Of a stretch of 64,000 nucleotides of DNA, positions 6,960 through 59,400 are shown piece after piece. A program made the translations under genes and the position numbers. The notes under the pieces are model-generated. The model worked only from the letters and a program-made list of their open reading frames with translations, was not told the origin of the DNA and ran no database searches. The stretch comes from Datnioides undecimradiatus. Its lineage: Eukaryota; Chordata; Actinopteri; Lobotiformes; Datnioididae. The DNA lies in contig WARS01000016.1 of NCBI GenBank assembly GCA_008933995.1, positions 7,230,215-7,294,214 on the forward strand. The letters run 5' to 3'. Numbering within the stretch: position 1 is the first letter of the stretch; each line of letters begins with the position of its first letter.

Positions 6960-9900
6960 ACCCCACATGACCTCATTAGTTCATGCTGAACCTGTCTACC
7001 ATCTTTTAATGCTCCTGGTTATTTGAGTGGATCAGCCTTTGTTCTTTTCCATGTGTTTAATGTTTAATGTTAATGTGACTTTGAACATCAGCCCTATTGT
7101 GTTTTATTTTATTTTTATTTAAAATATAAATTTCATATTTAACACACAGTTACAGAGGCGGTGTCAGCCTTCTCATCTAACTCCCAAAATGGCGAATTGT
7201 GGGCTTGGTGGTTGTATTTGAACTTTGGGTAGAGCCATGCTAACTGCTCCCCCCAATTCCAGTCTTTATAGTAAGCTCAGCTAACGTGATCACTCTGACT
7301 CTGTATTTAACATACACAGTGTTATCGGTCTCCTCATTTAAACTTCCATAAAAGTCAAACTTCCCTTTGTGCTAATGCTGATTTTACAGTTGGATACCTA
7401 TAAATCCTTGGCTGTTACTAACAGCTATTTCTGAGTCTGCTGTGTACAAGATGAGTGTTTGTTGTTTGTTTGTTTCCTTCACACCTTTTGTCTAAATCAG
7501 CATATTTTTGCATAGATTAATGACCTGGTTGACTTGACGAACACTAAAACTTTTGTTTTCTTTTGATCGTCGTTGACCAGATTGACATGATGTCATTTGT
7601 TTGTGTTTTTTAGGTAAGAGGACGGTCGAGGGAATAATCCAGTGGATGAAGCGTCGTACAGGTCCTGGTGCTCCAGTGCTCGACTCTGCAGACGCTGCAG
7701 CTCAGTTCATCGATTCCCATAAGATCGCTGTTGTGGGATTCTTTGATGTAAGTTTATCTATTTTTAACTCTCCTTACTGATCAATCATAACATCACATGC
7801 TCAGTTTCTTATTTCCATTTTGGCTTGACACATCTACATTAGAACCTGGAAAGTGAGGCGGCCAAGGTGTTCAAGGAAGTTGCTTTGGATGTGACGGACA
7901 CTCAGTTCGCCGTGTCAGCGAGTCCTGAGGTTTTCCAGAAGTATGAAGTAAAAGCCGACTCAGTGGTTCTCTTCAAAAAGGTGCGGGCATGTTAAAACAG
8001 TCAAAAGTCGAGTGTTTTACAGAGAGGCTGTTCTAAGACACAAGATGCTATACTGATGTTAGCTCTGCTGCCATCTAGCGCCTAGAGGTAGTGTATACAG
8101 TGTGTCCTCACAAGGATAGTTCGGATAGTTCTGACTTCACTAACTTTGGATGTATGGCTCCATTTAAAATGAGGATGAGGCTTTCGTTTGGCTTGTGACT
8201 GTAGGTATACAGCAGAAAGTAAATATTCAATCTGCAATGTCTGATTATTGATGATTATTATTATTTTATTAAGATGTCAGCGATTTTAAAAATATTGTAG
8301 TCATTAAAATGTCGTAAATTAGGAGGGACAGCACATCATAAACTGTCAGGATCATTATAATGTTAATGCTGCGATTATCAATAATATTTGAAGTGACTGT
8401 TAACAGTTCTTGTCGGAAAGTCAAACCAACCACAAATAGACTCAAACTGACCACACGGCTGTTGTTTATGACTGCTTCCATTGCATCCTGTTTATAGTTT
8501 GGTTTATTTCTTTGCGAGTCTGGGTCTTGTGTCAGATTAAATTTGTTTTTTTGTTTTGTGAACATTTGGACAAATGTGAGTATGTGTATGATGTTTATGA
8601 CAGAGGCCTAATCTTTGAATCAAAGTGAATTTTCTGTATTTTTGTGTTTTGTCCAAACACTGTGATAGTGTTCACTATATATGAAATACAGAGAAAAGCA
8701 GAAAATCATCCTAAATGAGAAGCTGATACCAGAAACTCTCATATTGCTTCACTTCATATGAATAAATTAATTATCAAATTTGTTGTTGGTTAATTTAGAT
8801 TTTTGACTTGTTGTTTCAGAACCGCAATAGATTACAAGGTTAACGTTAGATCTATCAGAGTTGAGTAAAACAAACGTGTGTGTGTGTGTGCGTGCATGCA
8901 TGTGTGTTTGTCAGTTTGATGACGGCAGAGCAGACTTGACGTTGTCAGAAGACGGGAAGCTGGACAAAAAGAATCTCACCACCTTCATCAGTGAAAACAG
9001 CCTGGAGCTGATCATCCCATTCAGCCAGGAGGTAACACACACACGCACACAGATGTACACAAGCATGTTTACAAAATTAAAATGAAATGTAAAATTTTAT
9101 TCAAATGATTCTGTTCATGTGTGTTTTCAGACTGCAGATAAGATCTTCTCCTCCAGCGTCCGCATCCACAGCCTGCTGTTCATCAACTCCTCAGTGGAGA
9201 GTCAGACAGCCCTGATGGAAGAATCCAGGACTGTTGCCAAAAAGTTCAAGGGCAAGGTAACAGTCTGGTGTGTGTGAGAGTGTGTATTCTGTGTGTGCGT
9301 GCGAGAATGTGTGTCTTTCACACAGCCAGTGATTGAAAGACATAAACCTCGCTCAACCTCATTGTCTTGTTTTTATGTTGTGTGTGTGTGTGTGTGTGCG
9401 TGATGTGTAGATGCTGTTCGTTGTGATAAACGTGACAGAAGCTTTTTCTCATGTGCTGAAATACTTTGGCGTTTCTGAGAGCGATGCCCCCACAACCCGC
9501 ATCATTAACATGGATACAGGAAAGAAGTTCACCCTCACTGCCGGGGACCTCACAGCAGATTCACTCACACAGTTGTGCCAGGAGGTTGTGGATGGCACTG
9601 CCAAGGTAACACACACACATACGCATGCACATATGGATACACATGTTTCATATTCAATCACACAGCAGCAGTAAAGCCAGCGACTTGTCTTGTTTGATCT
9701 TGTGGTGCAGCCCTACTATCGGTCTGAGGAGATCCCAGAGGATTGGGATAAGGAAGCGGTCAAAGTCCTGGTGGGGAAGAATTTCGAATCGGTGGCTTTG
9801 GATCCGACCAAAAACGTCTTTGTGGAGTTCTGTAAGTCAGCTCATCCGCTGTCCTGAGTCTGCACTGTAAAAACTCAAACTGTAATTTAGAGAAATTGAC

Positions 9901-11808
9901 TCACCTTTCATCCTAAAACTCAATCAAATGGTGAATTTTGAGTTCCCTCTTTGTATTTTCAAACTATTTCAGACTGCACAATCCTTAGCTCTTCACTTGA
10001 ATGATGAGGTGAATTAATGTCCCTCTTATTGTTCATTGACTCATCAGATCATGATTCCATCTGTGTCTGAACACACTCACACCACTAGAAAAAGAGACCT
10101 ACACTAATGGACGATGACACAGCACAGGAAGTGCAGCTGGTTTTGTTATTCAGACTGTAGGAGCCGGCAGACAGGCAACAACATACACAGAATTCCTTGG
10201 ACGCCAACAACAAAAAAGGCCTTAGCTGAACCCCACTGAAATCAACTTGCTTGCAGCTGCCAATGCAGAGACTCAGTCCTCTCATCATGCACTGAGCGCA
10301 CGATTAGATTGAGTTCATTTAGCTTGATAAATGGAAAAAGATTCGCCAGGGATGAGGGTTAGTATTTATTGTCCATCATGCCCTCAACAAAAAGCACGCC
10401 TCTCTCATCACCTTCACTCTGCTCTCTCCTTGTCTGCCTTCAGACCGGTTCATATCATGTAACTTGGCAGCCAATCAAAAGTGACAAAAGATGACCTGTG
10501 AATTTGACACCTATATTTACTTTGCATAATTTCATATGAAAACATATTAAAAAAAAACCCAAAAAACTTAAAGTTGGAAAATTGGCTGGACTGTCCATCA
10601 CATGTGGCCAACACCAATTTCTGTTAAAAATCCTGCAGTGCAAATTTTTTTTTCTGCTGTCTGCTGGATATGAAAACCAACAAACATCTTTTTTCTGTCA
10701 GAAAATGGCAAAATAATTAATGATTTCTTTATGTAACAGTGAATTTCATTGTATGGGTGCACAAATGAGTAACGGACTGATTTTGGATGCAGCCTTTGCA
10801 ACATACGGGAAACATGTATACAATGATATATAATATGACTTAACGAGATATTAACGTCAACATTTAAATCAGAAAACGTTGTTTGTCTGAAAGGTTTAAT
10901 GTTTCCACCCTGGAGCTAAATATACGTAAAAATAACAAACATGGACGCCTCATCAACCGATAGATACTGTTTTACATTGATCACTGCGTAATTGTCACCA
11001 TGACCAGCTTTACAATCACACAACCATCACTCAGTCATCCAGTAATGAGTGAAATACAGACACACAATAAGACCGAGAGCCAACATGGGAAATGTTTTGA
11101 TCCTTCACTACCTGCATGTGCCATTTTTTCCATTTTATGTGTGTGTGTGTGTATTTGTGTGTGCCTGGCTAGATGCTCCTTGGTGTGGACACTGTAAGGA
11201 ACTGGCGCCCATCTGGGACCAGCTGGGTGAAAAGTATGCCGACAATGATGACATCATCATAGCCAAAATGGACGCCACAGCCAACGAGGTGGAGTCCGTT
11301 GACGTTGACGGGTTCCCAACACTCAAATATTTCCCAGCGGGTGGCAAAGAGGTACCAGCGCGCACGCACGTTTCGTCTCTACACACACAGACATTACTTG
11401 TCGGGGTTTTGTGAAGAGTTTTTAATTATTTCTCTCATCCTGTCCTCAATCAATTCTCTGTGTCTCTGTTCTGCTCGTTGTCCCGTAGATGGTCGACTAC
11501 ACTGGAAAGAGGGATCTGGACACATTTTCTAAGTTCCTGGATAATGGAGGAGTTTTACCTGAGGAGCCAGCTGACGAAGATGACGATGATGATGACGATG
11601 AGGAGGAGGATAATGATGATGATAAGGAAGGCGAGAAAGATGACACTGTTGAAGACAGCAAGGTTTGTATTTTTACTGCTGTTGTATATTTACTTTAAAT
11701 TATAAATCTACTCCACTCACCACGGTCCCATTTTATTTGTCTCTCTTTCAGGAGACTGATAAGTCTGCAGAGGCACCAGCCAACAAGACATCTAAAGATG
11801 AGCTGTGA
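5746..11808 (+). CDS. pdia2: Protein disulfide isomerase A2
   Basis: Eleven exons: 5746-6028, 6603-6809, 7614-7747, 7843-7980, 8915-9031, 9131-9256, 9411-9605, 9711-9831, 11173-11351, 11489-11662, 11752-11808; 576 residues, all junctions GT-AG and in frame. A signal peptide (cut near residue 20) precedes a long acidic extension (about 21-70). Thioredoxin-type a, b, b' and a' domains follow. Both active sites are intact, WCGHC with cysteines 99/102 and 445/448. An acidic tail rich in Asp/Glu ends in the ER-retrieval signal KDEL. The enzyme makes and rearranges disulfides in the ER lumen. SKFLDNGG and the KKFDDGRAD segment favour PDIA2 over P4HB, and human PDIA2 is in 16p13.3. The Tyr codon before each CGHC is split by an intron. 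Confidence 0.92.
6928..6957. repeat. (TG)n microsatellite in pdia2 intron 2
   Basis: About 15 GT units. Similar shorter tracts occur in introns at 8876-8890 and 9380-9398, and at the 3' end of intron 8 near 11140-11162. Confidence 0.9.
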
Positions 11809-21090: not shown

Positions 21091-24000
21091 ATGAGGAGAC
21101 TGTTGCTGCTGGGGGTGACAACCTTGTGTCTCTGTGTGTTTGTCGCCGCGGACACACAACCCGAGCGACAGGAGGACAAATCATTCCCCGAGAAGGATGG
21201 AGTTTTACAGCTGAAGAAAGGAAATTTTAACAGGGCACTGAGAAAACACAAGCAGCTGCTGGTGCACTTCTGTAAGTTACACACAAAGACTCACACAGCT
21301 TGATCTTGACCTACATGTCGATACAAGGGAAAACAAAACCATAAAAGAGAGATTACATGAAAGCTAAGTCTCTCACACTGCATCTTGTTCCTTATTTGTG
21401 GTCACTCACTGTGTATGACTCTATGTGTAGATGCTCCTCTGTCTGGAGAAGGCCAACGTGTCTCAAAGGCATTTGAAGGTGCTGCTGAGGAGCTTCAGGG
21501 GTCAGAGGTCAAGCTGGCAGTGGTTGATGTGTCAAAGGAGAAGGACCTTGTTAAAGAACTCAATTCGACAGGCCTCCCTGCAATCAGACTTTACCTCTCT
21601 GGAGATAAACACAACCCTATAGCCTGTCCAGGTATGTGCAAACAACAAATGTCCTTTCTATTCACATTGATATCAGAAAAGGTTAAAAGGGGTGTCATTT
21701 GTTGCTTTTAACCCTTTAATAGTATTCTGGTTTTAAGCAACTTAAACTTTGTCACTTCATTAAAAGATCTGGGATTGTTAGTAGACACCAGTTTCCTGTC
21801 TGGAGAAGAACCAGTCGTAATCTGAACCTCAGAAATGATGATGATGGTGTTCATGCAACCAAGTATAAATCAAACATACATTGTTCAGCATCTATACTAT
21901 CTTATTCCTTTTGTAGAAAACAATACAATCATGAACATCATGCAGATCATCAGTGTAGGGAATTGAAATGTGACGTCATCAACAGGAAGTTGACACTGAT
22001 CGTCACCTGTACACTGTTAACACCCGTGTGGCCAGGTAGTTTCAACCTGTTTAACTTTGCCATCTGCTGGCAGTTCGCTGTTACTGTCAATACAGGTAGA
22101 ACAGATGCATGATTAGCAGACGTTTGTTAGCAATCAGTTAGCATTACATTAGTTAATCCTACCCCACACTTCAATTCTGGAAATATTGCCCCTTTGCCTC
22201 TATTGAGAGTTTCTCTTTGTGGCTTAATTATAATCTTTCTTGTGTGAAAACAAGCTGATTGTCAATTCTGATGATGAGCGATTGACCGGTAATGACAGCT
22301 ACACTGACTGTGTAGGCAACCCAAATGGCTGTGCAGCCCCAGAAGGCTCAGGCTCTTCAATTCCTTATCTACTTGACTGCTAGGTAGTTAACTAGCTCTG
22401 TTAGCTTAAATCTTTCTGATATAATCTCATTCGTCATCCTATTTTCTAAACCTGAGTGCTAGGCTAGCTGTTTTCCCCGTTTGTAGTTTTTACGCTAGGC
22501 TAAGCTAGTTAACACATGGACATGAATCAATCTTGTTATCTAGTTCTCAGCAACAAAGCATATATAAACTAAACACATGTCAAACTACTCTAATATCAAG
22601 GTGTTGGTTATGATTCAGTTTGGGCAACATATGAAAAGTACAAATCATTGCTTTTTCTATATTTTAGTTCCACAGAGCGCAGCCTCCATCTTGACCTGGC
22701 TGAAGAGGAGGGCGGGGTCTCCTGCTGACCTCATCACTGATTTTAGCCAATCAGAGGCCTCAGAGGAACTGACAGCAGTTGGATTCTTTAAGGTGAATAT
22801 CAACTGTTTGATTTTCTTGATGCCGAGACTTTAATTGACTGAATAAATCTATTTCTGCGTTTTCACGTGTGCAGGAGCTGAACCACGAGTACGTCCAGGT
22901 GTTTTACGCTGCGGCCATCGACCTTCCTGATGTTACCTTTGCCGTGACACAGGACAACAAAGTCATCAGCAAATATGGCCTCACACATGATGTTGTACTG
23001 CTCCTCAAAAAGGTACGTTAAGTACAACTTACAAAAAGCTGTTAAATCTTCACATTAAGCTATTGTGGAATGTGTTTATGGGCAGTATTTTAAGGCAGGT
23101 GTTCATTGCATTTTTCTTGTGTGTGTGTGTTTGTGTTTGTGTGTCTGCTGCAGTCTAAGCTCATCCAGGCTTACAAAATGATGCCTCAGACATCCAAGGA
23201 GGAGCTGATCATTTTTATCACTGTCTACCAGATGGATCCAGTCACTGAGTACACTGGCCAGGTAGAGTATTGGATGCATGGCATATTTTTACATAAATAT
23301 AAGTTCTCTCCTCCACATTTGGAAGTTTTGTGGGTTTTTATGTATTTAAACTCACTGAGATGGGTTACTTCACAATATTAATTCAATAAAGAATTAGTGT
23401 TTTTTCCAAGCTGATTCCCATTGTGTAAATCGTATTTTGGTTGCCATCTTTAATAGAGTTAAAATCGGAAGGTTAAATATCTGTACAATGTTTCACTAGA
23501 TTCTGTTTTATCTTCACCCTAAATGGACAATCCACTGGGACATGCACTAAAAAGATATCCATGCCACTTTAAGGGCTAAATTTGATGGACTCTCAACCTG
23601 AAATTTCAGCACCTGTGGGCCTAAAGGTTGGATGTTTAATGCAAATGTTTTGCTTAAGTTCGTGTGACGGACCACTGTAAGAAGCTAAAAGTGCAAGCAA
23701 CAGATATGAAGCAACTTTTAGCAAACCATTTATCATTTAATATAATTAACCAGCTGTTCTCAGCACTGGGGGTATTGTGTTGTTTTGCAAGTTATTGTTT
23801 TATATCACCTTTTACTTGGCCCCCCTTTGTACAACTGCAAAGTAGCTTCAATGACCAACAACTGAAAAGAAAAACACAACCTAGAGACACACCTAATCTT
23901 GTATTGTTAATGCAGACGTGTTCATGGGATTCTCTCGCTTACAGACAGCCACTCAGATACTAACAGCACCCGTGTTAAACCATGCCCTCCTGTTTGTGAA

Positions 24001-28174: not shown

Positions 28175-31100
28175 ATGGAGCCAGCGGGCGCGTACGGCGC
28201 CGGGAAGGCCGGGAGCGTCAACTTCGATCCGGTCGCCTTCTTCACGCATCCCCGGACCATCCTCAGACTGTTGTCGTGGGTAAGCCTCCTCTGCAATGTG
28301 TAGGTTGACATCAATGGGCAGGCCTACCTGCACCCCCAATCTCTCCCATTCACACCGTCTGCCTCTCGCTCTTTGCTATTAATAATGTCTTGTATCCAGT
28401 CAGGTCAGGATTAACATAAGACAGTGCTTTTACACAATGCTCTGTATGTTACAGTCATATCCCCGCTGTGTTATTCATTTCAGCTCGCTGTATTTAACAG
28501 AAATCATTTCAGCGGAGCAGCTTCAGGCTGGAGCTTCAGCACCAGTGTCTGATTACCATATGTTTATCTGGAGCCTCTTTGTGTCTAGATTGAGCTCATG
28601 TGAACGCTGTGGTTTGAAACACGCGCACGGCCACAATGTAACACCTCTCTGTCGTCTCTCTCTGGGGTAAATGCTGTGAGTCACCATACAGCATTTAATG
28701 TGCACCGGAGGAGGCATAGCAAGTTAACAGAACTACACAAAACCTGTCCGTCTGCCTGACTGTCTGTCTAACTGAGGATCCAAGTCACTTCAATATCCTT
28801 TGTCATAACAAATATGCCAGGGCCCTTTAAAACACATCAAACCACAAGACAAAAAAACAAAATGAACTCAGTAGGAAGCAGCTCTTTATAAACCTCTCTC
28901 TACATCCAGGAGCCAGTGTTTTACTTTTTACTTTACTACAATTAAATAGTTACTTTGCTGATTCATATTTTTAATGCAAAATATAAATCACTTAATAATT
29001 CACTGTTTTAAATATATTATTATAGATTACTCAGCAGTAAATGTAGTCCCACCTATATGTGTGTGATAAAATGTAGGCTATGATGATCTTGATACATATG
29101 TACTGTAACGCTTTGTGTCTGACCTTGATTATATCTTGACTGTCTCTGCAAATGTTTGTCACTACAGAGGTGTCTTCACATCCGTCTGCTGAGGGATTCA
29201 ATCTGAGAGTCAGATGTTCACAAGCCAGTCACTATCTATCTTGCAAATATTAGGGGCACGTTCGCAGTAAGCTTGGTTGGCTATCAAGATGTGAACTCAA
29301 CACACTGTAACACCACTGGCAGAGTTTAATGTATGTTTTACGACTACTAATGCTTTGTAATGTCAGTTCCAAGCTAACAAATAATGAAGTTACCATAATG
29401 ATGTGTCCGCTCGGACTGACGTTTTAACATTATGAGTGAATTGCTGTAATTATTCCTTTAACACTAGCTATCCTGATGTATACTGCTCTTTTGTTGGCCA
29501 ACCAATCACAATGAGTGGCAGAAGGCGGGACACCAGGTCATGTGGTTCATAGAGCCAGAAGTTCTCAGTGTGGGAGGAAGAGTAGATGTGTTTCAAGCGT
29601 CTTTTTACTTTTGTTTTGAAGAACCATGTTAAGCAAAATCGTTTGGTTTGCACATTTTTATATACTTATAGTTTTGACATAGGCCAACAGCGGTAAGGTT
29701 TATTTAGAATATTTCAATGAAGAAAAAGATCTGATTAACTTTTCCACCACCGCGGGTCATGTAGTTCATTTCCAATGATTAGGACTGAAAGAACCACTTT
29801 TTCCATTATCAACGATGAACCCAAATATTTCACTGATTGCATGACTAATGAAATGAATAAATAAATAAATAAAATGTGAAAATGGGTGAAAATATCAAAC
29901 AATAATTAAAAGGTGCTGTCATCAAATTTCTTTTTGGAAAAAGAATCCAAAACTGAAACTTTTTTGTCACATAAGACAAACAAAACCTAAAACTAACAAT
30001 TATTTTCATAACCTATCAACTTTTTGACAGTTTGCCTTATAAAATGCCCACCACAAAAAGCCCAAGCGTCCAATCACACTAACAAGTACTGGACATAAAG
30101 CTAAGCTAACTCTCAGAAGTGGAAGAAGAAAGAAAGGGTTATTAGGATGATCCACAGTCTAACTGCACTGTGGAGAGTTTACTGTGTTTTCTACCTTATA
30201 CACAGGACTGTTAATATCTGCTGACAGTGAGGTCAGTGGATTATCCACAGTAAAGAGAAAACTGCTTCTGGACAGACTGCTCGAGGGTTTTTCTCAGTGG
30301 TGGATCTCAAAGTATCCCTGCAGATAAAACTCAAACTGTCTGATGTTTTGTGATTGGGTGAACTGACCCTTTAAGAAACATAGTTTGCTTGCTTTGATCC
30401 GCGTTTCAGCAAACTATTTATAACATGGTATAATATGAAATGGGTAAAATAAGATAAATCCAACACTATCTGCAAAGCATCATTTGGGGTGATTGGGTTT
30501 GTTTTTGGTCATTTGTATCAAATAATCCTCTAATAATAGGACATGCTCATCGAGGAGAAGTTTGTCTTTGTATCTTGAAGCAGTGAATGTTTTGGTGTGT
30601 CTTTGTGGGGCAAGTATGAGGAATGAAAGGCATTCGTACACCAGTGTGAACTCATTCTCTGCTAGCTGTCAGATAATAAACCAGCCCTCGTGGTTTTCCT
30701 GGCAGGTCTTCTCCATGGTAGTGTTCAGCTGCATCGTGAACGAGGGCTACATCAACATTGGCAGCGAGCGTTTGCTCTGCGTCTTCAACAACAACGCCGA
30801 TGCCTGTAACTACGGCGTTACTGTGGGCGTGTCCTGTTTCCTCGGCAGCATCTTTTTCCTTATCCTGGACATTTACTTCCCCTCCATCAGCAGCATTAGG
30901 GACCGGAGACGTGCCGTTCTGCTGGACCTCATCTTCTCTGGTACCTTTTCAGCATTTCATTTCCATTGGAAATAGTCACATATACTTGAGAAGAGAAGAT
31001 CAATACCCCTATACAGTAAATGTCTACTGTATACTGTATCCAATGTCTATACATTGAAAGCAGCTGGTTAGCTTAGCTTAGCTTAGCTTAGCCCACAAAC

Positions 31101-37649: not shown

Positions 37650-38351
37650 TTAGTCGTCCACAGAACTTCCCTCTGCTTGATTAGGAGTGAGGGTTGTGGC
37701 ATCAAATGACAGAGTCCGTCTTCTCAGTTCGACACTGCTGTCCATCAGCTGGGTTGCCATAGTAACTGGCTCCTCTCCTGGCGGCGGGCTCATCCTCTGC
37801 TTCCTGTTCCTGCCTGACACCGGAGACACTGATTGGCTGAGGCGGCTCCTGTGCTCCCCGGGGCTTGGGGAGAGGTGTCTGCTTTTGTGTGAAGGGCTGG
37901 GAGGAAGTTGTGTGTGTGTGTGTGCGAGAACTGAACTGTTAATGCGGCTGACTTCCTCGTCTGTGTCGTCTAACTGGGGACCGGGGTCAGAGCCGGGGCT
38001 GGGGCTGGCCGCCCCGGAGCTACAGAGCGGCGCTGATAGTGTGGATTCACCACTGGGGAACTTCAGACTGGACAGGCTCTGTGGGCTGACAGGCCTCTTC
38101 TCGACATCTGTTCCTGGCTGCGAGCCACAGATGGCCTGCTCAGGTACATGTTCTTGCCCAGTGGTTTCACTGTGGCTCCGGCTGTGGCTCCTGCATGAGA
38201 TGACCCTCTGGGGGTGTGTATATTTCAGCGTGTGTACACTGGACGATCGCTGGCGCGGTGGTGTGGATGAGACGGCGGGCACAGTGAGTTGAGGCTCTGC
38301 CAGGTCGTCAGCTGAACCGCTCTGATCCAGAGAGTCACAGCGCACAGCCTC
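37650..38351 (-). other. cacna1h: cacna1h last coding exon: distal C-terminal tail
   Basis: It opens [11 protein letters not shown], like the RQEAVHTDSLE block of mammalian Cav3.2, and closes with [23 protein letters not shown] and VDD. In between it is Ser/Pro-rich and probably disordered, with RSHSRSHSE and an acidic [13 protein letters not shown] patch also found in Cav3.2. Many Ser-Pro sites could be phosphorylated. A (GT)-derived His-Thr run lies at 37910-37925. Confidence 0.85.
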
Positions 38352-41300
38352 CTGCAGACACAACATGTGCACAAACACACATAAACAACACAAATTTCAG
38401 TCTGTGTTTGGTTGTGCAAGTAAAATATTTTAAAAATATTTATACATTTAAAAAAATGTATATTTTTACATTTTTAAAAATGCACAGTGCACGCAAGTCG
38501 CTACGGATCAAAACACATATGCAGAATTTTTACATTATTAACACAAAAATGATCACTTCCTCTGCAGAAGAATAATTTTGAAATAGTTTTTTATACAACA
38601 GACTTGGACTTAAACTGATATTATGCTAGCTGGTCTGGTAACTACTCATGAAGTATTCACTTCCTTAAGCGATGACACGATAAAACATGGGAACCCAATC
38701 TAGTGTCACACAATTGCAACTGTGGATTTTATTCCCCATGTTGTACAGTTGCGTCAGTGGGGGAATGTATCCCTTCACTGTCAGAATGAAGAGGAGAAAC
38801 ACATGTACATATACACATGTGAGTCATCTGAGCTTTAAAAAACACACCAGCTGGGTTGGACGTTTTAGTCTGTTTAGTACTACAATCAAGTAACTACAAT
38901 CAAAGCTCCTTCAATCAAAGCTTTCTTAAGATTTTGCAAATGTAGCTGTCACGTTTTAGTTTTGTCTTTGGATGTTGCCTTTTTTTCATTCTAAGGATTA
39001 AATGGCTTCCATTCATTTCCAGCATGAAATTCAATTAGCAGACTCCATCCATCACAATATATGGTCTGCATAAATCACCGTGAAAACTACATTATCTTTG
39101 GATATTAATGCAGTTTCATTGTGGACTTAAGTCTGCACTTTACAATAATGTAACTTGTAACAATATAACAAAAATGAATACCTATTGCATATTTATTGCA
39201 TATTTAACATATTGTGTATAAGTAACTGCTAATAGCATTTCAAACAATATGGAAATCTATGGATGCACAGAATAGCCTTAAGATAATGACAGAAGTCTTA
39301 TTCTAAAATTTAAAAGAAAACAGGAGAGGAGAGGAGAGGAGAGGAGAGGAGAGGAGGTGATAATAGCACACCTGTCTTCGTAACTGTCTGCTTGCAGTGC
39401 GGAAGGATGCTGGTCTCTTCAGGGCTGAACTATCTGGAACATAGGAGGGACTCAGCTTGTTTCTGTCTAAACTGTCTTCAGGGCTGAGCCAATGAGAAGG
39501 ACGTCTGCTGGCACTGTAGGTGTGACTCAGTCTGAGTGAGGAATGTCTGTCCATACTGTGGCTGTACATGAGTTTCGGCCTGTCTGTGCTGTGGTCTGGA
39601 TTGATCCTGTATCCGTCCATACTGTGAGTAGAGCTCAGTCTGTGGCGGTTTATTCGATGTGCCGGGCTAAACTTGTATCCATCAATACTATGAGCAGAGT
39701 TGAGTCTGTGTCTCCTTATCCTGTGAGCCGGACTAAACCTGTACCCCTCTGTACTGTCGGCTGGACTGAGTCTGTGTGGGGAATGTCTGTCGATGCTCTG
39801 AGAGGTGCTGAGGCAGATCTTTGGCCGTAAGCTGCGTCCAGACCCAAGCGAAGCGTGGCTGATGACTGGCAGAGCTCCTGGAACCTGCAGCAGTGAGCCG
39901 CCTCCACTGGAGCCCAGAGATGACATGGAGCCTGCACAATATATTGTGGCAAACACCACATGGACATAAGGATGGAAAGACAGAATGAGGTATAGTTTTA
40001 GTTAAGAGGAATGTGCTATTGAAAACAAGAATTGTCAAGAATCCGCCTGAAGTCAAGACAATTCTTGATTTCAGGTTGTTTTATTTAAGAATCAGTAAAA
40101 CAAGGATTGCCCGTTAACAAGTATTGTCTGTGTATCAGAGAACTGATGTAACTTGTTCTTTTGAGCCATAGACTATTGTCCAAAACTACTGAAAACACTT
40201 CAGTGAACCACAGTGATGCACTGGGTGACATTTTCTGGAGGAGAGGAGAGGAGAGGAGAGGCCACGACCAATTAAACTAAACACTGCAGTTTATTTTGAC
40301 TCGGTCCCTCACAAACTGTGCTGTTGCTGTAAATACCCACTTGAGCACCCAGCACGTGACAGTTCGCATCTGAAAGTAGACCTCAACAAATACACTCCCG
40401 TTTCAGTAAAATTAGCTAAAGAACACAGTCTCAAATTAAACAAGCATGTGTGTATATATTTTAAAAATCATGGTCTTGGTCTTTTAATGGAATTTTTAGA
40501 TGATGATAAAATATAGAAGCCCTAAATGTTTAAAAAGGTGTCAGTCTGTGTCTGTTTCCCTTTTTTTCTATGCCTTCAATTACACACACAAGATGTGGTG
40601 AATGAGAGCCTTTTGTACGTAATTTTCAAATTTAAGCCCTTATTTACTCTTTCACTGTACATTTCTCTTGATTGATTCCATTTTATGTCTTTTATCTGGG
40701 TTAAAAAAAAGCTTATAGGATGTGATCAGCAGTAGTTAAAAAAAGAGTTACCCATGTGTTTGGCAGGAATACACTCATCCAGCTGTGACTAATATCAAAA
40801 AATATCTTCCGCTTAATAATAAAGTCTACAATAACAGTGCCTCACGTTGTAGCACATCACATCTAAACTGCCTTCATTGCTATTTATGGAAACAATAATC
40901 TTTACAGCAATCAGTTAGTGGTTATAGGCCAGTAAAAACTGTTCCTTAATTTAATTGGCTATAAACAACCAAATTACCTGAGTAGCTGTAGCCGGAGTAG
41001 GCCTCGTGGCCAATGGGAGGATAAGGGGAGCATCTGAGTGGCTGAACGTAGCTGTCGCTGGGGAGAGACAGCATGCGTCCCATGCTCAGCAGGTTGCCAT
41101 GGGAACACTCCTCATCCTCAACCTGCACCTGCAACATGAGATCATCACCACTGTCATCGTCCTTGTCACCTCCACTCCTGTCTCTTTCACACAGGCAGAA
41201 ACATGACCATGCAGCGTGTCCGTTACCTGTGCAGGTGTGTCCACATTTGGCCCCAGGTCTCCTCCCACGGATGCAGTGCTGAGGCGACGGTTGGCCTCCT

Positions 41301-45112: not shown

Positions 45113-48100
45113 GGACAGTCATTAAAATGCTTCTGAAAGAAAAATATAATGTGGGCTATGAAGTCACTGATGAAGTGGATGCCAAGTGGCGCACTGCTGT
45201 GTGTGTGAGTGTCCATATGTGTGTGTGTGTATACGGACTAAAAGTGCCACCTCAGGAATTCAGTCCTATCCATCACGCTCACACACACACTCCATGGCAC
45301 CTCAAGGTGTCTTTGGGCAGAAACCCTTGCTGTCTGCTGCCAGACAGTTAACTGACTGAGAGGAAAGCACTACTAGAGATTACATTGCAGAGAGAGAAGG
45401 ACAGGGAGAGACGGAGACACAGAAAGAAAGGAGTGTGTGTGTGTGTGTGTGTCTGTGTGTGTGTGCTTGTGCATTATCGTTAAGTGTGTTTCTTAGCATA
45501 CCATGTACAGAAATTATGCATGTAGTTATACAGTATGTATGCAGAGAAAAGAGGTTTATCGTGTGTGTGTGTAATATTCCATCTAAAATATATGGCCTGA
45601 AGTATATGGACCAGCTGTTAGGAGTATGTTTGGTCTCGGGATGTTTTAGAAAATATTAATGCTACAGCATTCAACACACTGACAACTGTGTGTTTTGTCA
45701 TTTCAACATGACAATGTCCAGTTGTAAAAAGAAACATCTGTAAAGGAATGGTTGCTTGGCCTTTGGGATAAACGGCAACTCAAACTGTGAGCCTTATTGC
45801 CCCATAATAGTTGCAAACCTCTCTGGATGAAGCTGCATCACGTCACAGAATTTGATTGTTTTAAATATTACACACAATGCCCCAACACTAATGAAAGCAT
45901 CATTGCATATTCATTTCATGTCATACCAAAATCATTTAATATATAAGCCACAAGTGAGATACCCTGATCGTGGGCTGTTGTTGCCGGTACATATTGGATA
46001 CTGGGAGTGAAGCTCTTGTGGCTGAATGAAAGCAAACACCTTCAGGCAGCTTCACAAATCTTGTGGAAAGAAAGAGTGAGGGCTGTTGTTGCTGCATATT
46101 TACGCAGATGGTTTTGAAAAGACATATTACAAAAAAAAAAAATCCCATACGGGTGTCCACATACTTTTGGCCATATATGGTATGTCTGGCACCCCTCCCC
46201 ACTCATTCCCCTTCCGCTCTCTCACTTCTCCTCCTCTTCTCCAACCGTCTCTGTCGTTTCTCCTCCCTCAGCCGCGCCTCCTCCTCCTCCTGCTGCTGGC
46301 GACACTTGTGAAAGTTTTCCACGACCACGCCCACAAACATGTTGAGCACAAAGAAGCTGACGATGAGGAGGAAAGAGATGAAAAACAGCAGCATCCAAGG
46401 GTTGTTGTTTCTTATTGGCTGCGAAGGGATGGAGAGAGAGAACATGAAGAGGAGAGAAGAGGAGAGGTAGCAAGGGAACAAAGGGGAAAAAAAGGGGGAC
46501 CAAAGAGTGACGAAAGAGGAATGGAGAGAAGGGAGAAGAAGAGAGAGCATAAACAGGGAGACAATGTAAATCCTGAGTCAGCAGTGAAACTGCAAGCTCT
46601 GTCAACTCACATCTATGTATCCATCTGACTTTTTTCTTTCCTTACACCTCCCTTCTCTCCTGAAATATTTTCCCTCTATCTGCTTGAAACAAACAAGATC
46701 AAACGGTGCCTGAGACTGACACAAAACAGAACCAAAACACACTCAAATATAATATATGCTTGCTGAATGGTCTGTATGTTTCCCTGATATTCATTCTGAC
46801 GTCTCACACCCTTTCTCTCGCCTCTTCTATACGTGCGTGTGTGTCTCTTCACCTGCTGGTCCACTCCGACAGCATCCAGGCCATCATACATGATGCTGAC
46901 CCAGCCGTCTTTACATGACAGCACGAACAGTGACATCAGCGCCTGGAAGAGTGAGATACATATAAATCAACATCATGCGGTCAATCAGTTTGTAAGAGCA
47001 GGTGTCAGTCTTTGTGTGTGCGAGTGTGAGACAAACCTGTCCCAGGTTGTCAAAGTTGTATTTCCTTCGAGCCCAGCGGTATCCTGCCTCTAAACACTGG
47101 GTTTTATTGGTGATGTTACTCACATCGAGCCCGTCGCAGTAGAAGAACTTCCCTTTGAACAGCTGCATACACAGACAGATGTGCGCACACACACATAAAC
47201 ACACACGAGAACACTGTAACCTCAAGGTAATGTAAACAAAGCTTTGCAGAGCAGGACAAGATTGATGTATACAGTAAATTACTCTGCAACAGCCAATAGG
47301 CCTACTGTATGGTCCAGCTAAGATATCTGAGCACCATCTGGTCCAGTCTGCCTCACAGTCACTACAAGCACAGAAACATTCCAGCATGGAGCGTTCTCAC
47401 TACAGCATTATCCAGTAGTGTGTTAATATATGCTTCAGCATTCATCAAGCACCATTTCCTGTGCAAGCATTAATTTAAAAACTTGGAGGAATGATTGCAC
47501 AAAAATGGAGACCACAACCCAGAGGAGAAAAACTAACAAAGATAATTATATAAATAAAAATGGAGAAAAAAATGCTGTTGTAAGGAAGGATATTATGGCC
47601 TGGGGAGGTGAAAGATCAAAAGGCGTAATAAAATAAACATGTTCTTGTGTTACATATTGGGGATACATGGAGGGTACCAAGATGAATCTGGCCCACAGAC
47701 TGAGAAGCTCTGCTTTGTAATACTGATCTTATTGATCCTTTCTTTTCATCATGGTACAATAGGACTAAAAGAAAATATTCAAAAAAAACCTTAAACCTCA
47801 TCGATTTGTTTTGAATATTTAAAGAAACGATAAATATTTTACATACATTTTATCATTTATTATCAGCTAACAGCTACAAAGTTACATTTAAATTTCATTA
47901 AAAATAACATTCTCAGCACAGTCCCTCTGTAGTTGAACTACTGTTTTTTTTAATTACTTCCAGGGACTCTGGTGCATAATCAGCTCATTTGCATTTCCTC
48001 CCGATTTTTCTCTTCACTTTTTATTACCTGAAGCATTTTCTGAGTCGTGCCTCATTTGTTTTAAACCATCAGTGATCAGTGTCTTCTTTGCATTAGAAAA

Positions 48101-53437: not shown

Positions 53438-56400
53438 CGAGAGAAAGAGAGAGAGAGCAAGTGCTCTCTGATGCCGGAGATAAAAGATGAAAACTAAACA
53501 ACAAAAGCTCACCAGCTGTGAATGGCAGGCGATATCAAACACATCCCTACCCTGGAGAGTATTGTGTGTGTATGTGCGCGTGTGTGTGTCAGTAAGAAAA
53601 AGAGATAGAGAGAAATTGAGGGAGAGAAAATGGGATAGAAGGGGGGAGAGAGATAGAGGAAGGGAGGATAACTAGGAAATAAAGAAAAAAGAGTGATGAT
53701 AAAGAGAGAGGGAACCACACAGGCAGGATGGTAGAGATTATTCTCTTGTAAGCAGCTTTGGTATCATCAGCACAACAGAGCTCAATTAGTCTCGTTCTCT
53801 CTGCCTCATTCTCTAAGTAGCTCAAATAAAACTGCAGCTTTGCCCTTACTTCGGCTTGAAAGCCCTCAACCAAAATGGCTACAAGCAAGTTGAAGAGGAC
53901 GTAGTTGCCAAAGGTCATGAGGGCTACAAAATAGAGGGCAGCCAACGGCGAGGTGGAGGCCATCCCGTTATACAGCACCGCGTTCCAGTCTTCCTGTGTG
54001 AGGATCTGCAGATGGGAGGAGATAAGAAAAACACACCATCAAACACAACGACCGATCAGAAATGCACACGAATGCAACGCTGCCAGTAGCTGTGCTAAGC
54101 ATCAGAATATGAGGAATAGGAGCGGATTCTCCCTTTAATATCTCATTGTCAGTTGAACAGTAATGATGCTCATCAGTGTTAAATGAGCTCCTGTGGAGTG
54201 CGTGTTTCATTACTCTTCCTCCCCCTCTGCTTGTGAAGCGTATCTTACCTGCCCACTGGGAGAGTTTTTATATTTTGTTGAAAAGTCGAGCCTAAGTACT
54301 CCCAAACTGGAGCAAATGAAATAATGGAGAAGATCATCAGTGTACCACTGGTGACAGCAGCAGCTGCTGCTTGAACTTCATCCCAGTTCATTTTAAAATT
54401 ACATTCAGGGTAAATCCATATACAGGGAAGGTCCTGGACATGACCTTTTGTCGATGTATTTGTTTGTATTTGTGTGAGTGAAAGAGTGCATGTCGGTATG
54501 TTTGTCTAACCTGAAACACAGTGACAGTTGCCCAGAGCAGAGAGTCAAAGTTTTTTCTGTCAGGTAACGTGTCTCCACTATCTTGTCGCAAACCAAATTT
54601 GCACCCGAACAGATGCATCCCCAAGATACTGCAACACACACACACATGCAGGTACACACAACACAATGAGAAAATACATTACTTTCATTTCCTGGTAATT
54701 TAACGCAGCAAGATGCAGCTATGCTGCCTGTGTGAATAATTGTGTTTGTATAAAAGGTGATGATACATGTGGTAATATGTCCAGGAACCAAGTAAGAAAG
54801 GTCAGCAGTAACGATTATGATGTTTGAAGTATAATCAGTTTAATTAAAGCAGAGAACACAGTTTGGCTTTAATTTCAGCCTGCACTATTGCCATCTAGAG
54901 AATATACCTGAATATGAATATAAAGAGCATCAGCAACATGCAGAACGTGGCCACATTGTCCATAGTCTTCATCAGCACCACCAGCTGCCTCCTCAGGGCA
55001 GGAAGGAACCGGACCAGCTTCAAGACTCTTAACAGACGAAAGGTACGCAGCACAGACAAGCCTCCCTCTGCCTCGCCCACTATTTCCCACACACTAAAAC
55101 ACACACAGTTGACAAGCAGAGCATGAACGCAAAGTTAAATTCACATTAAAGCAACCAAGGAATCAATATGTGTTTAACCTCAGCTATAATTCTTCAGGAG
55201 TTAGCATCACAAAGAAAAGCCTCCCTTCCAGATAGAAAAAAGTGCAAAACTATTTTTCCAGTGACATGCAGCGACTGAAAAGAGGAATGCTGCTTACAAT
55301 TTACCAGCCAATAAAGGAGGTGTGAGCAGTGTGCACAGTAAACAAGCAAAGCCTTCAAGCACAGATACATAATTTAGCTTGTAGTATGACATAATGGAGT
55401 GAATACAGGCCTCCCGAACTAAGAGTGCCACTTCATGGCTCCACTGCCAGAGACAGCATCAGTTTGAGTGACGTGATCGGTGACAGTTTGAGAGATGTGC
55501 TGACTGAGTGGCCCCACCTGATGATGACTATGACGCTGTCGAAGCCATTGTAGGGGTTCTTGATGTAGCCAAAGAGCCCGAGAGCCAGCAGCTTCAGCAG
55601 CATCTCCAGACTGAACAGACTCGTGAAAACCATGTTACTGATCTCCAAAATATCCGTCAGCTCTTGTGGCTGAAGAAGAGCCGTGTTTGTGGAGAGAAAA
55701 GCAGGAGAGGGATTGATGTACAGATACTGGACAGGCACACAGTAAAATGAACAGATAAACAAAGACAGACAGACTCACAGAGAGGAGGGCAGTTGACTCA
55801 ACATGTCAGGAATTTCCAAAATGCTAGTCGAGGCTCTAGAGTAAGCTTATGCAGATATATACAGAGAGCGAAGCTACCCCAGGATGTGAGTGCAGGTGTG
55901 TTTTCATCCACAATCCTTTGGAGTTGAATGAGGGAATGCACTTTCATTATTAATACTGCTGATATGACTTTAAAGCGGTGGTTCTCAAACTAAAGGGCTG
56001 GCAAAGAGAGGCGCACACACGACTGGAAGGAAAATTATGGCGTATATCTCAAGATGAATGAATCAGATTCATATTAAACAAGAGTGTTCTCGCGTTAGCA
56101 AGGTCACCGAGACTGACTGACACTGCAAAACTCTTACACAAGTCTTATCTCATTAGCACGAGTTACATATAATATATTAATAAAATAACATTTAATTTGG
56201 ATTGTTTGTAATGATCACATCATTATTATTAGCTTGTCACAACAAAATGTGCATGAGAGGCATTATAATTTCACAGAATATGTTAAAGACAATATGCAAA
56301 ATGTTGCATGTCCAAAGTCTAATATGTTACTGTTTTCAGATTAAAAACTACACAACCAAGTTTAGAGTCACCTATTATACCGATGTCTTTCTTCTGTCCT

Positions 56401-59400
56401 TCAACAACACATTAGCATAGATAGAACTGCATCAGTTTGAAGTAGTTTGGGTCTCAAAAGAAGAATAATGTAATGATTAAAACTTTCATTTAGCTGATGC
56501 CCCCACAGAATTGCCTGACAGGGAATAACACAGTTTCAAATATTTTTATTTTGAAATTCTTTTCCAGTCCAAAAACGTGAAGTGACCAACAATCGTTATT
56601 GAACCATGACAGTGCTCTGAATATTTTATTTTTCAGAGGATCTCTTCAGTCTACTCAGTGGGTAGACTGAACAGGTGCAGGCTGTGATTTGTTGGTGCAT
56701 AGTAAGTTTAGATGTTATTCAAACGCTAGACACCAGACAAACCTAGTTCTATTTTAAAGCTGTAAGAATAACTTAATCAATCAATGACTGGTGATTTCTT
56801 ATATTCTCATTTAAACTGTTAACTTCATCTCTTTCTGCTCTTTCAGTTGTCAGCCAACCACTGTGCAGCATTTTCTTCACAATGTACCAACCAGTACTTA
56901 TTTGCAGACCCTTCAAATTAAGTAACATTTATGTATAGAAAGAAGACTTCCTACCCTCTTAAAGAACATAGAAAACATAAAATAGTCCTCTCAGCGTCCT
57001 GACCGTACCAAATCAAGCTTTTTTAGCTAGGCCATTCCAAACTTTTGAACGGTACTGTGTGGTATTGAAAACACCTAAGCTGTACCGTGGCACTGGGTGA
57101 CATTTCTTATTCACAGTCAATACGGTCACTGTGGTTTCTTTCTCCCAGCTCTTAAAACCAACAAAGCAGTGTAAACCAAGTAACTGTGTATCTGAGCATG
57201 CTCAGTGACATCTGCTTGACACAGCTACTCTCTGGAGAGAAAAAAAAAAAACCCCAAACAAGTCTCTCAGGTGTCGAGATTAAACTGCACTGGTCACGTT
57301 CACTGACACGAGGGAATGTCATCCAATGAAACTATATGGCTCTCACGTGCACAAAGTCGTTTTCAGACGACAGTAGGTTTCTATGGCGCAGAGGGAAAAA
57401 AGCTTCTTTGGCCAAAGCATTTATATATTATTATATTCATTCATACATTTTCATTGTTGGTTTTGGTCCCTTGAGAAGATTTGTGAATAATAGAAAAGGA
57501 TAAAATAGTGCTGGCCTTATCCTTAAATATTAGCCATTCAAGAAGTTAAGGCCATCCACATCTGTCATATTATTCAAGAAATGGGCCACATGCATTCTCC
57601 CCTGCGTCTCCTGCAGTCTATCCCTGCCTTTCAGCCAATCACAATGTCAGATCTGTCCTCCTCCTCCTCCTCACTCCTCCATTCGCTCTTGCTCATTTCT
57701 CTCACTCTGCCCGGTCTCTCTGCCGCCGCTCACTCTCTCTCCTGTCCCAGGGTCACGCTTTAATTAACACTTCAGGTCTTATGAGTTTCTCCATCTCCCG
57801 ATACATGCGTGCGCACACACCCACACACCGTCACGCACACACACAGACAGATACGCGCACATACACACACACGCACACGCACACTGATACACTTCGTGAT
57901 CCCATATGCTTGGTGCTGTAAGTGTTGATTGGAGGGTAAGTTCATTGACTCCACCACACACAGTGATTAGCACATCCATTTTCAATCAAACTGTAGTCGC
58001 ATACAATCTGCAAGAGGCACGCACATAGCTATACACGCGCACACACAAACATACCTGCTCGTGGTACTCTATGCCCATCGACAGTGTGTTAATAAGGATG
58101 GCAATCATGATTCCTCTGTTGAAGTATCTGCTGCCAACGATGAGATCCAGTTTAGCTCGGAGTGCTGCCCAGCAACGCTCGCACAGCCTTTTCTTTGGCT
58201 TAGACACCTGTGCATCACCGTGGCAGGGGCTGCTACAATGGCATGGACAGTTACTATGACATGGGCTGTTGCCATGACATGAGTTGCTGTACCCATGCTG
58301 CTGGTCTTCAGTCTGCTCATTAAAATTTTCGCTGTCACTTAGTTGGTTGTAGTAGATGCAGTACGGGCATACTGAAGACTCTCCTGGGACTTCACCTGGC
58401 AGCGGTAAGGCAGGATGACCAACGCATCCACCTGCACAGACAGACAGAGGAGGTGATATAGACACACAATAATCCTACATGCACAAGGGCATGGTTAATA
58501 GTTGATTCTGTATGTTGGACATTTTGTCATTCAATATATTCTCTGCACGGTAAAGGACAGCACCTTCATTTCATTTCTGAGAAACAAAAATTCAATAACA
58601 TGGAAGCTACTGTGCAGTTGGGATGCTTTTGTGCAGAGGGGGAGTTCTTTTATTAGAACAGGGATGTGTGTGCATGTGCTTGTGTGTGAGTGTGTACGTG
58701 TGTTGGGGGGAAGGGGCATGGAGTGAAGCGGGAGTAAGATTTCAGCGGAATTCATTATCAAGCAGCTCGGGAGGAATGCTCCAATGACATAACAACAAAC
58801 ACTAATCTAGCACAAGCAGTTCACTTGTCATCACAATTACAACAAATTCATGTTTTACTGGAGACTGATATAGTAAATCCAATCTAGGAGCTCTTTGGTG
58901 TGTGTCTATAGATAATATGGGCTGCAAGGAAACTTTGCTGAAACACACACAAAATAGACTCTTCTAGAGCTGAATTGTGGCCCAAGATCCCTTGTGTATG
59001 TAACAGCATACTGAATAATTTCTACTCCTTTTTATGTGCATGGGAAGTTTTCCAACTACAATTATTATTTATGTCTCAATTTTATAAAAAAAAAAAAAAT
59101 TTGAGACGTCTTTTCTGCATTACTTAACTGATTTCACTAATTAGGGTCAGTGTACCCATCAAGGGGAGCAATACTGAGCCTGTGAAGACAGCTGCGTGTC
59201 TTCTGAGACTGGAGGAGCTTTGTAAAATCTGAGAAAGCAGCACCCGATGATGAGGTTTACATTTTTTGTGGAAAGTCTTCGTTACCAACTGATGATATAG
59301 AATTTACAGGTGCTTTTGGAGTGCGTCATACAAGCGAATCAAAGTCAAGATGTCTTAGCGTCTACCACTTTGATTTTAACCATCCATTTCGAAGTTTCTC

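Follow-up and report, generated by a model that had tools for sequence, protein, structure and literature searches.

Gene content of the locus

The minus strand of the window (the whole stretch of DNA that was analysed, 64 kb) carries, between positions 47162 and 37650, what is on sequence grounds the 3′ part of an intact Cav3 channel gene, cacna1h (Cav3.2). In the gene model built here, this part extends from the domain III pore to the stop codon and consists of 13 exons encoding 923 residues; ag precedes all 13 exons, gt follows each of them except the last, and there is no internal stop codon. The channel gene gives a Pfam Ion_trans match with an E value of 4.7e-84, and further cacna1h exons lie upstream, toward the window end, among them one with an Ion_trans piece (53592–54038). 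The selectivity filter of Cav3 channels follows an EEDD pattern with Asp in domains III and IV, and both Asp residues are present in the model protein, within CKDGW of domain III and TGDNW of domain IV. Another feature typical of Cav3.2, the zinc/redox His of domain I (H191), belongs to the part of the channel encoded upstream of the modelled exons. Among the solved structures, the model protein matches human Cav3.2 (9ayg_A) best, with 1003 bits against 972 bits for Cav3.3 and 913 bits for Cav3.1, in agreement with the name given to the gene in the preliminary description; this subtype call is by match score against PDB sequences only. A query with the tail alone matches PDB channel chains with 104, 93, 79 and 68 bits.

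Three exons of the tail, all on the minus strand, are of concern here. The first of them (40978–41128) aligns with human Cav3.2. The second (39372–39931, 560 nt), which is entered in phase 1 from the acceptor ...gtgcag and left in phase 0 at the donor gtgtgc, bears a tandem repeat array of ten units and 119 residues (357 nt, 39441–39797). The last coding exon (37650–38351) ends with a TAA stop, and its alignment with the tail of human Cav3.2 is weak (RQEAV.., ..RKQRMSPP.., ..LRRRT..). It is very improbable that the array exon is alternative or mispredicted and lies outside the main transcript. An antisense open reading frame of 96 codons on the plus strand (39540–39830) does overlap part of the array and would suit such a view, but no frame except that of Cav3.2 stays open from end to end of the array, each of the other five having a stop, AG and GT stand on both sides of the exon, and the flanks align with the human tail. 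Skipping this exon alone would moreover shift the reading frame, because of its length of 560 nt and its phases. Short simple repeats of GGAGA type occur in both introns flanking the array exon, at 39322–39356 (AGGAG ×7 by TRF) and at about 40240–40261.

Several other features were noticed in the window. A Cys/His-rich repeat on the minus strand (58227–58281, TRF period 18, within the open reading frame 57989–58474) directly precedes domain II, apparently within the I–II linker, and is possibly metal-binding. The plus strand carries the end of a Toll-like receptor-type gene (1–939), with the C-terminal part of the LRR and a TIR domain (TIR E 9.9e-23), and a MARVEL-domain membrane protein (30526–30972, E 6.6e-11). 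Between them on the same strand are thioredoxin/protein disulfide isomerase-like exons at 9411–9671, 11049–11411 and perhaps 21361–21708 (Pfam PF13848, 1e-8; PF00085, 1.3e-15 and 1.5e-5). The piece at 21361 may belong to a second, non-classical gene, because it reads DAPLSG where the piece at 11049 reads DAPWCGHC.

Architecture of the array

With the unit boundaries set by the Ser/Arg at position 1, the unit lengths are 14, 11, 11, 11, 11, 11, 11, 14, 14 and 11 residues. Read along the minus strand, the array begins with U1 (39756–39797, 14 residues), which contains the 9-nt insert CATTCCCCA. It is followed by six units of 11 residues each, namely U2 (39723–39755), U3 (39690–39722), U4 (39657–39689), U5 (39624–39656), U6 (39591–39623) and U7 (39558–39590). 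U2, U4 and U6 belong to type A and U3 and U5 to type B, and U7 is diverged. The array ends with U8 (39516–39557, 14 residues, insert CATTCCTCA), U9 (39474–39515, 14 residues) and U10 (39441–39473, 11 residues); U9 is the weakest in leave-one-out scores (8.6). The strict 33-base register is thus broken, since the three units of 14 residues bear a 9-nt insert. U1 and U8 share eight of the nine insert bases, and these two units show 79% DNA identity over 42 nt, the highest of any unit pair. The consensus of the units reads approximately S-[IMT]-D-[RG]-(xxx)-[HY]-[RK]-[LF]-S-P-A-H. Its core is Y-[RK]-F-S-P-A-H, a motif of proline-directed type, in type A (U2, U4) and R-L-[SN]-S, giving the basophilic motif R-x-x-S, in type B (U3, U5).

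Seven adjoining in-frame 33-base units had been described before, and 39546–39776 on the minus strand is indeed exactly 231 bases, or 7.0 units. Nucleotide identity over the 560-nt exon peaks at lag 66 (0.395) and is 0.355 at lag 33; the maximum in 1000 dinucleotide shuffles of the exon (lags 4–139) is 0.364, with a mean of 0.311, so that lag 66 beats every shuffle whereas lag 33 alone does not. At the protein level, the identity at lag 22 is 0.268, compared with at most 0.219 at any lag from 2 to 59 in 2000 shuffles. TRF finds a period of 66 with 76% matches at 39606–39743.

A profile made from these seven units scores 3.4 bits in the upstream flank and 6.9 bits in the downstream flank, values equalled or bettered in 0.018 and 0.003 of 2000 shuffles, respectively, and it gives an 11-residue match spanning U9 and U10. 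The repeat therefore continues on both sides, as had been noted, but the flanking units are not truly weak; they merely appeared so because the array is longer, with ten units from 39797 to 39441. When the DNA profile of all ten units, which the units match by construction, was run over the whole 64 kb, the ten matches up to E 50 were the ten units themselves, the weakest being U7 (E 1.2), and no extra copy was found. Among the open reading frames of the window, the best match to the ten-unit profile outside the array exon (9e-28) has an E value of 0.39. A candidate extra unit in the last exon was rejected, its best match of 7.0 being within the shuffles (0.096 of 2000 as good).

U2 to U6 alternate as A-B-A-B-A, with identities of 0.76, 0.70 and 0.67 between alternate neighbours and of 0.48–0.55 between adjacent units, whereas U7 falls outside the alternation (0.52 to U5, 0.45 to U6). 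The earlier observation that alternate units are more alike thus applies to U2–U6 and breaks down at U7, and the proposed history, in which an 11-mer doubled to 22 and then spread, can be upheld for these five units only.

Age of the array and constraint on the protein

The same-type unit pairs (U2–U4, U2–U6, U4–U6 and U3–U5), some of which are not independent of one another, have a pS of 0.77 and a pN of 0.18; the difference narrows when all 45 unit pairs are included (pS 0.82, pN 0.34). When U2–U4 and U3–U5 are taken together, about 10 of 14.1 silent sites differ, compared with 8 of 51.9 residue-changing sites (Fisher p 1e-4 with rounded counts), a contrast between few sites. The two 22-mers, U2–U3 and U4–U5, differ at 18 nucleotides, leading to six residue changes; 3, 4 and 11 of the differences fall on codon positions 1, 2 and 3, respectively (position 3 against 1 and 2 together, p 0.007). 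As few residue changes are reached in 0.0006–0.0026 of neutral simulation runs, with a transition bias from 1 to 8. Given that silent sites are saturated and residue-changing sites are not, the units presumably arose by duplication in the distant past and have been maintained at the protein level ever since. Judged from these substitutions, the array is old and apparently under protein-level selection.

The same divergence bears on the view that the array is a young coding minisatellite (VNTR), polymorphic in the population. The tandem 33/66-base periodicity is what such an element would show, but the near-identical units of the coding minisatellite class are not found here, for no unit pair exceeds 79% DNA identity and the silent sites of same-type units are saturated. 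Units so diverged slip rarely. We regard a minisatellite of this kind as hardly credible, and length polymorphism of the array is unlikely because the units have diverged so far.

Comparison with human Cav3.2

The alignment with human Cav3.2 (9ayg_A) stops at chain residue 1751 (...LAVSSP) and resumes at 1770 (...SLSRLLCRQEAV). The human gap comprises 18 residues, compared with 151 residues here (from tail residue 170 to 322), 119 of which are array. The preliminary description did not recognize the array from mammalian Cav3.2, and it is indeed absent from the human chain searched, which has the isoform 1 tail; two Cav3.1 chains and one Cav3.3 chain give no alignment across the array either. 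Taken alone, the human block after the gap scores only 2.1 bits. At the joint, ..RQEAV.DSL has a match in Cav3.2 and another in Cav3.1, where it reads RRQAAIRTDSLD (2.0 bits). PDB searches returned no relevant match for the last exon alone and no match for the tail exons without the array, and the array exon alone hit one antibody light chain (E 1.3), which was taken as chance.

Human residue numbers are obtained by adding 237 to the chain numbers of 9ayg_A, with S2188 and P2190 of PCISVE and S2222 as anchors (PMC10669385); the structure construct has residues 493–772 deleted and carries N-terminal tags (PMC11143251). By this numbering, S1987 is the serine in the final Ser-Pro ahead of the alignment break. 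Phosphorylation by Cdk5 at S1987, together with S561, is reported to raise the current density or the expression at the cell surface (as cited in PMC10669385 and PMC9913649). The human phosphopeptide SGEPLHALpSPR (1991–2001) is phosphorylated at S1999, and its signal falls after calcineurin treatment in vitro; the evidence for S1999 consists of one unique ion and three spectra, and the dephosphorylation is an in vitro result (PMC10669385). S1999 falls inside the 18-residue human counterpart of the expanded segment, 11 residues of which (1991–2001) could be compared. The motif H-x-L-S-P is common to the S1999 peptide, U1 and U9, and L-S-P occurs also in U10, with 4 of 11 residues of the peptide matching the unit. 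As S1999 lies inside this counterpart and S1987 adjoins it, the array appears to replace or expand a segment that is phosphorylated in the human channel.

Downstream of the conserved R-M-S-P-P, the present protein has nothing that corresponds to the calcineurin-docking PCISVE of the human channel, and it ends soon after LRRRT. An L-T-V-P occurs in the last exon (38288–38277, minus strand, from exon residue 22), in a place unlike that of the human calcineurin-binding LTVP at 2261–2264 (PMC10669385).

Predicted structure of the array

The array segment is predicted to be disordered. Charge-hydropathy analysis classes it as such, and single-sequence AlphaFold gives a mean pLDDT of 50.3 and a pTM of 0.12 with no structural elements, a low-confidence fold being weak evidence of disorder. 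A coiled coil built on hendecads, i.e. 11-residue units, is expected to have a hydrophobic periodicity near 98–100° per residue. In a scan from 80° to 180° in steps of 10°, the mean hydrophobic moment of the array is lowest at 100° (5.5) and highest at 130° (12.9), and this candidate was rejected. So were the Pfam domains suggested for the array, Olduvai (E 0.14) and the U11-48K finger (E 0.34), both below the cut-off. Searches with the array exon gave 13 pattern-matching stretches in viral contigs and 208 in bacterial and archaeal genomes, none of which was confirmed; these collections are not vertebrate and are silent on the spread of the array among teleosts. Among the titles and abstract beginnings listed from the open-licence PMC literature for a repeat in the Cav3.2 tail of fish, none describes the array.

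Disorder would also be expected of a passive spacer, a segment grown by replication slippage in which the composition rather than the sequence matters. The tail diverges fast, with the blocks of the last exon reaching only 2.1 and 3.4 bits against human Cav3.2, and this too is in keeping with a spacer. Nevertheless, silent changes between same-type units are far above replacement changes, and a spacer need not keep the class of residue in 9/10 and 10/10 units at two neighbouring columns. We therefore consider a passive spacer rather unlikely.

Possible function of the array

These two columns, Arg/Lys in nine of the ten units followed by Leu/Phe/Ile in all ten, are among the most regular positions of the array. 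Its 119 residues include six Ser-Pro and four R-x-x-S sites. The core Ser-Pro is present in five units only and absent from U3, U5, U6, U7 and U8, with one extra Ser-Pro in the U1 insert. Regular basic and Ser spacing had been claimed previously; a regular Ser-Pro lattice does not exist. Conservation is stronger for the [RK]-[LFI] pair than for Ser-Pro, a pattern compatible with docking and phosphorylation alike.

A docking or multi-phosphorylation platform had been suggested at the outset, together with an effect on channel trafficking that is conjectural. In a docking or sticker array, the [RK]-[LFI] core with His/Tyr would bind a multivalent partner or cluster channels, and phosphorylation would be secondary. 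The two regular columns speak for such an array, as do His/Tyr at the aromatic position in seven of the ten units and an overall content of 13 His, 6 Tyr and 17 Arg among 119 residues. On the other side, no partner or known motif emerged, Pfam gives nothing above cut-off, and the aromatic position differs between A and B units. Docking as the primary role is possible but, in our judgement, unlikely.

The phosphorylation part of the suggestion gains from the human counterpart, which holds S1999 and adjoins the Cdk5 site S1987, and loses from the presence of core Ser-Pro in only half of the units. Our preferred reading, to which we hold tentatively, is that the array is an old expansion in a disordered segment of the Cav3.2 tail, one that in the human channel already undergoes proline-directed phosphorylation, and that graded multi-site phosphorylation there tunes the channel. 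Where there had been one or two phosphosites, multiplication of the unit would have provided an input graded over many sites. Kinases of Cdk5/MAPK type and of CaMKII/PKA type would load the array, and a phosphatase such as calcineurin would unload it. The phosphate load may then alter channel surface density or anchoring, like Cdk5 at S561 and S1987 in mammals. The phosphorylation of the units, the kinases involved and the effect on the channel are what we infer from motifs and position.

A more specific form of this reading, which we consider speculative and doubtful, is that the multiplication, in a fish lineage, of a regulatory phosphosite segment of Cav3.2 produced a phosphate counter, or else a phospho-switched sticker, with partly alternating proline-directed and basophilic sites. 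If a counter were indeed at work, T-type current density would be a graded function of kinase history, and the array would be an ion-channel counterpart of the KSP or CTD repeats discussed below; no KSP- or CTD-like repeat in Cav3 was found among the matches listed from the open-licence PMC literature. Cdk5 phosphorylation at S1987, with S561, controls the expression and current density of Cav3.2 and matters in pain models (cited in PMC7153802 and PMC10387653). A natural channel with ten units offers a comparison for the question of whether the number of sites sets current density. It is also a warning that the way the tail regulates the human channel cannot simply be modelled with the present cacna1h.

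Comparison with known systems

The nearest known system is the human Cav3.2 segment around S1987 and S1999, which belongs to the same family member, occupies the same place by the flanking alignment and has Ser-Pro sites; with 18 residues instead of 151, however, it is too short for an array. The KSP repeats in the tails of neurofilament NF-M and NF-H are phosphorylated by CDKs and MAPKs (PMC10758125). The array resembles them in having repeated Ser-Pro in the long tail of a neuronal protein. Ser-Pro defines the KSP unit, whereas only half of the array cores have one, and phosphorylation, known in cells for the human S1987 and S1999, is deduced for the array from its motifs. The CTD of RNA polymerase II (YSPTSPS) is, like the array, a disordered tandem repeat, and it bears phosphorylation patterns (PMC12152636); it differs in its seven-residue unit, its unrelated protein and its known function. 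With core Ser-Pro in 5/10 units, rather than Ser/Thr-Pro in nearly every unit, the array was not assigned to a KSP- or CTD-like class.

In teleost piccolo b, zinc-finger repeats that are not in mouse have been amplified, and diversity of unit length has been proposed to stabilise the array (PMC3484663), which may be compared with the mixture of 11- and 14-residue units found here. Whole zinc-finger exons are amplified in piccolo b, in contrast to short units within one exon of cacna1h, but both cases concern repeat growth in a neuronal gene. By analogy, piccolo b sets a precedent for a repeat that grew within a particular lineage in such a gene.
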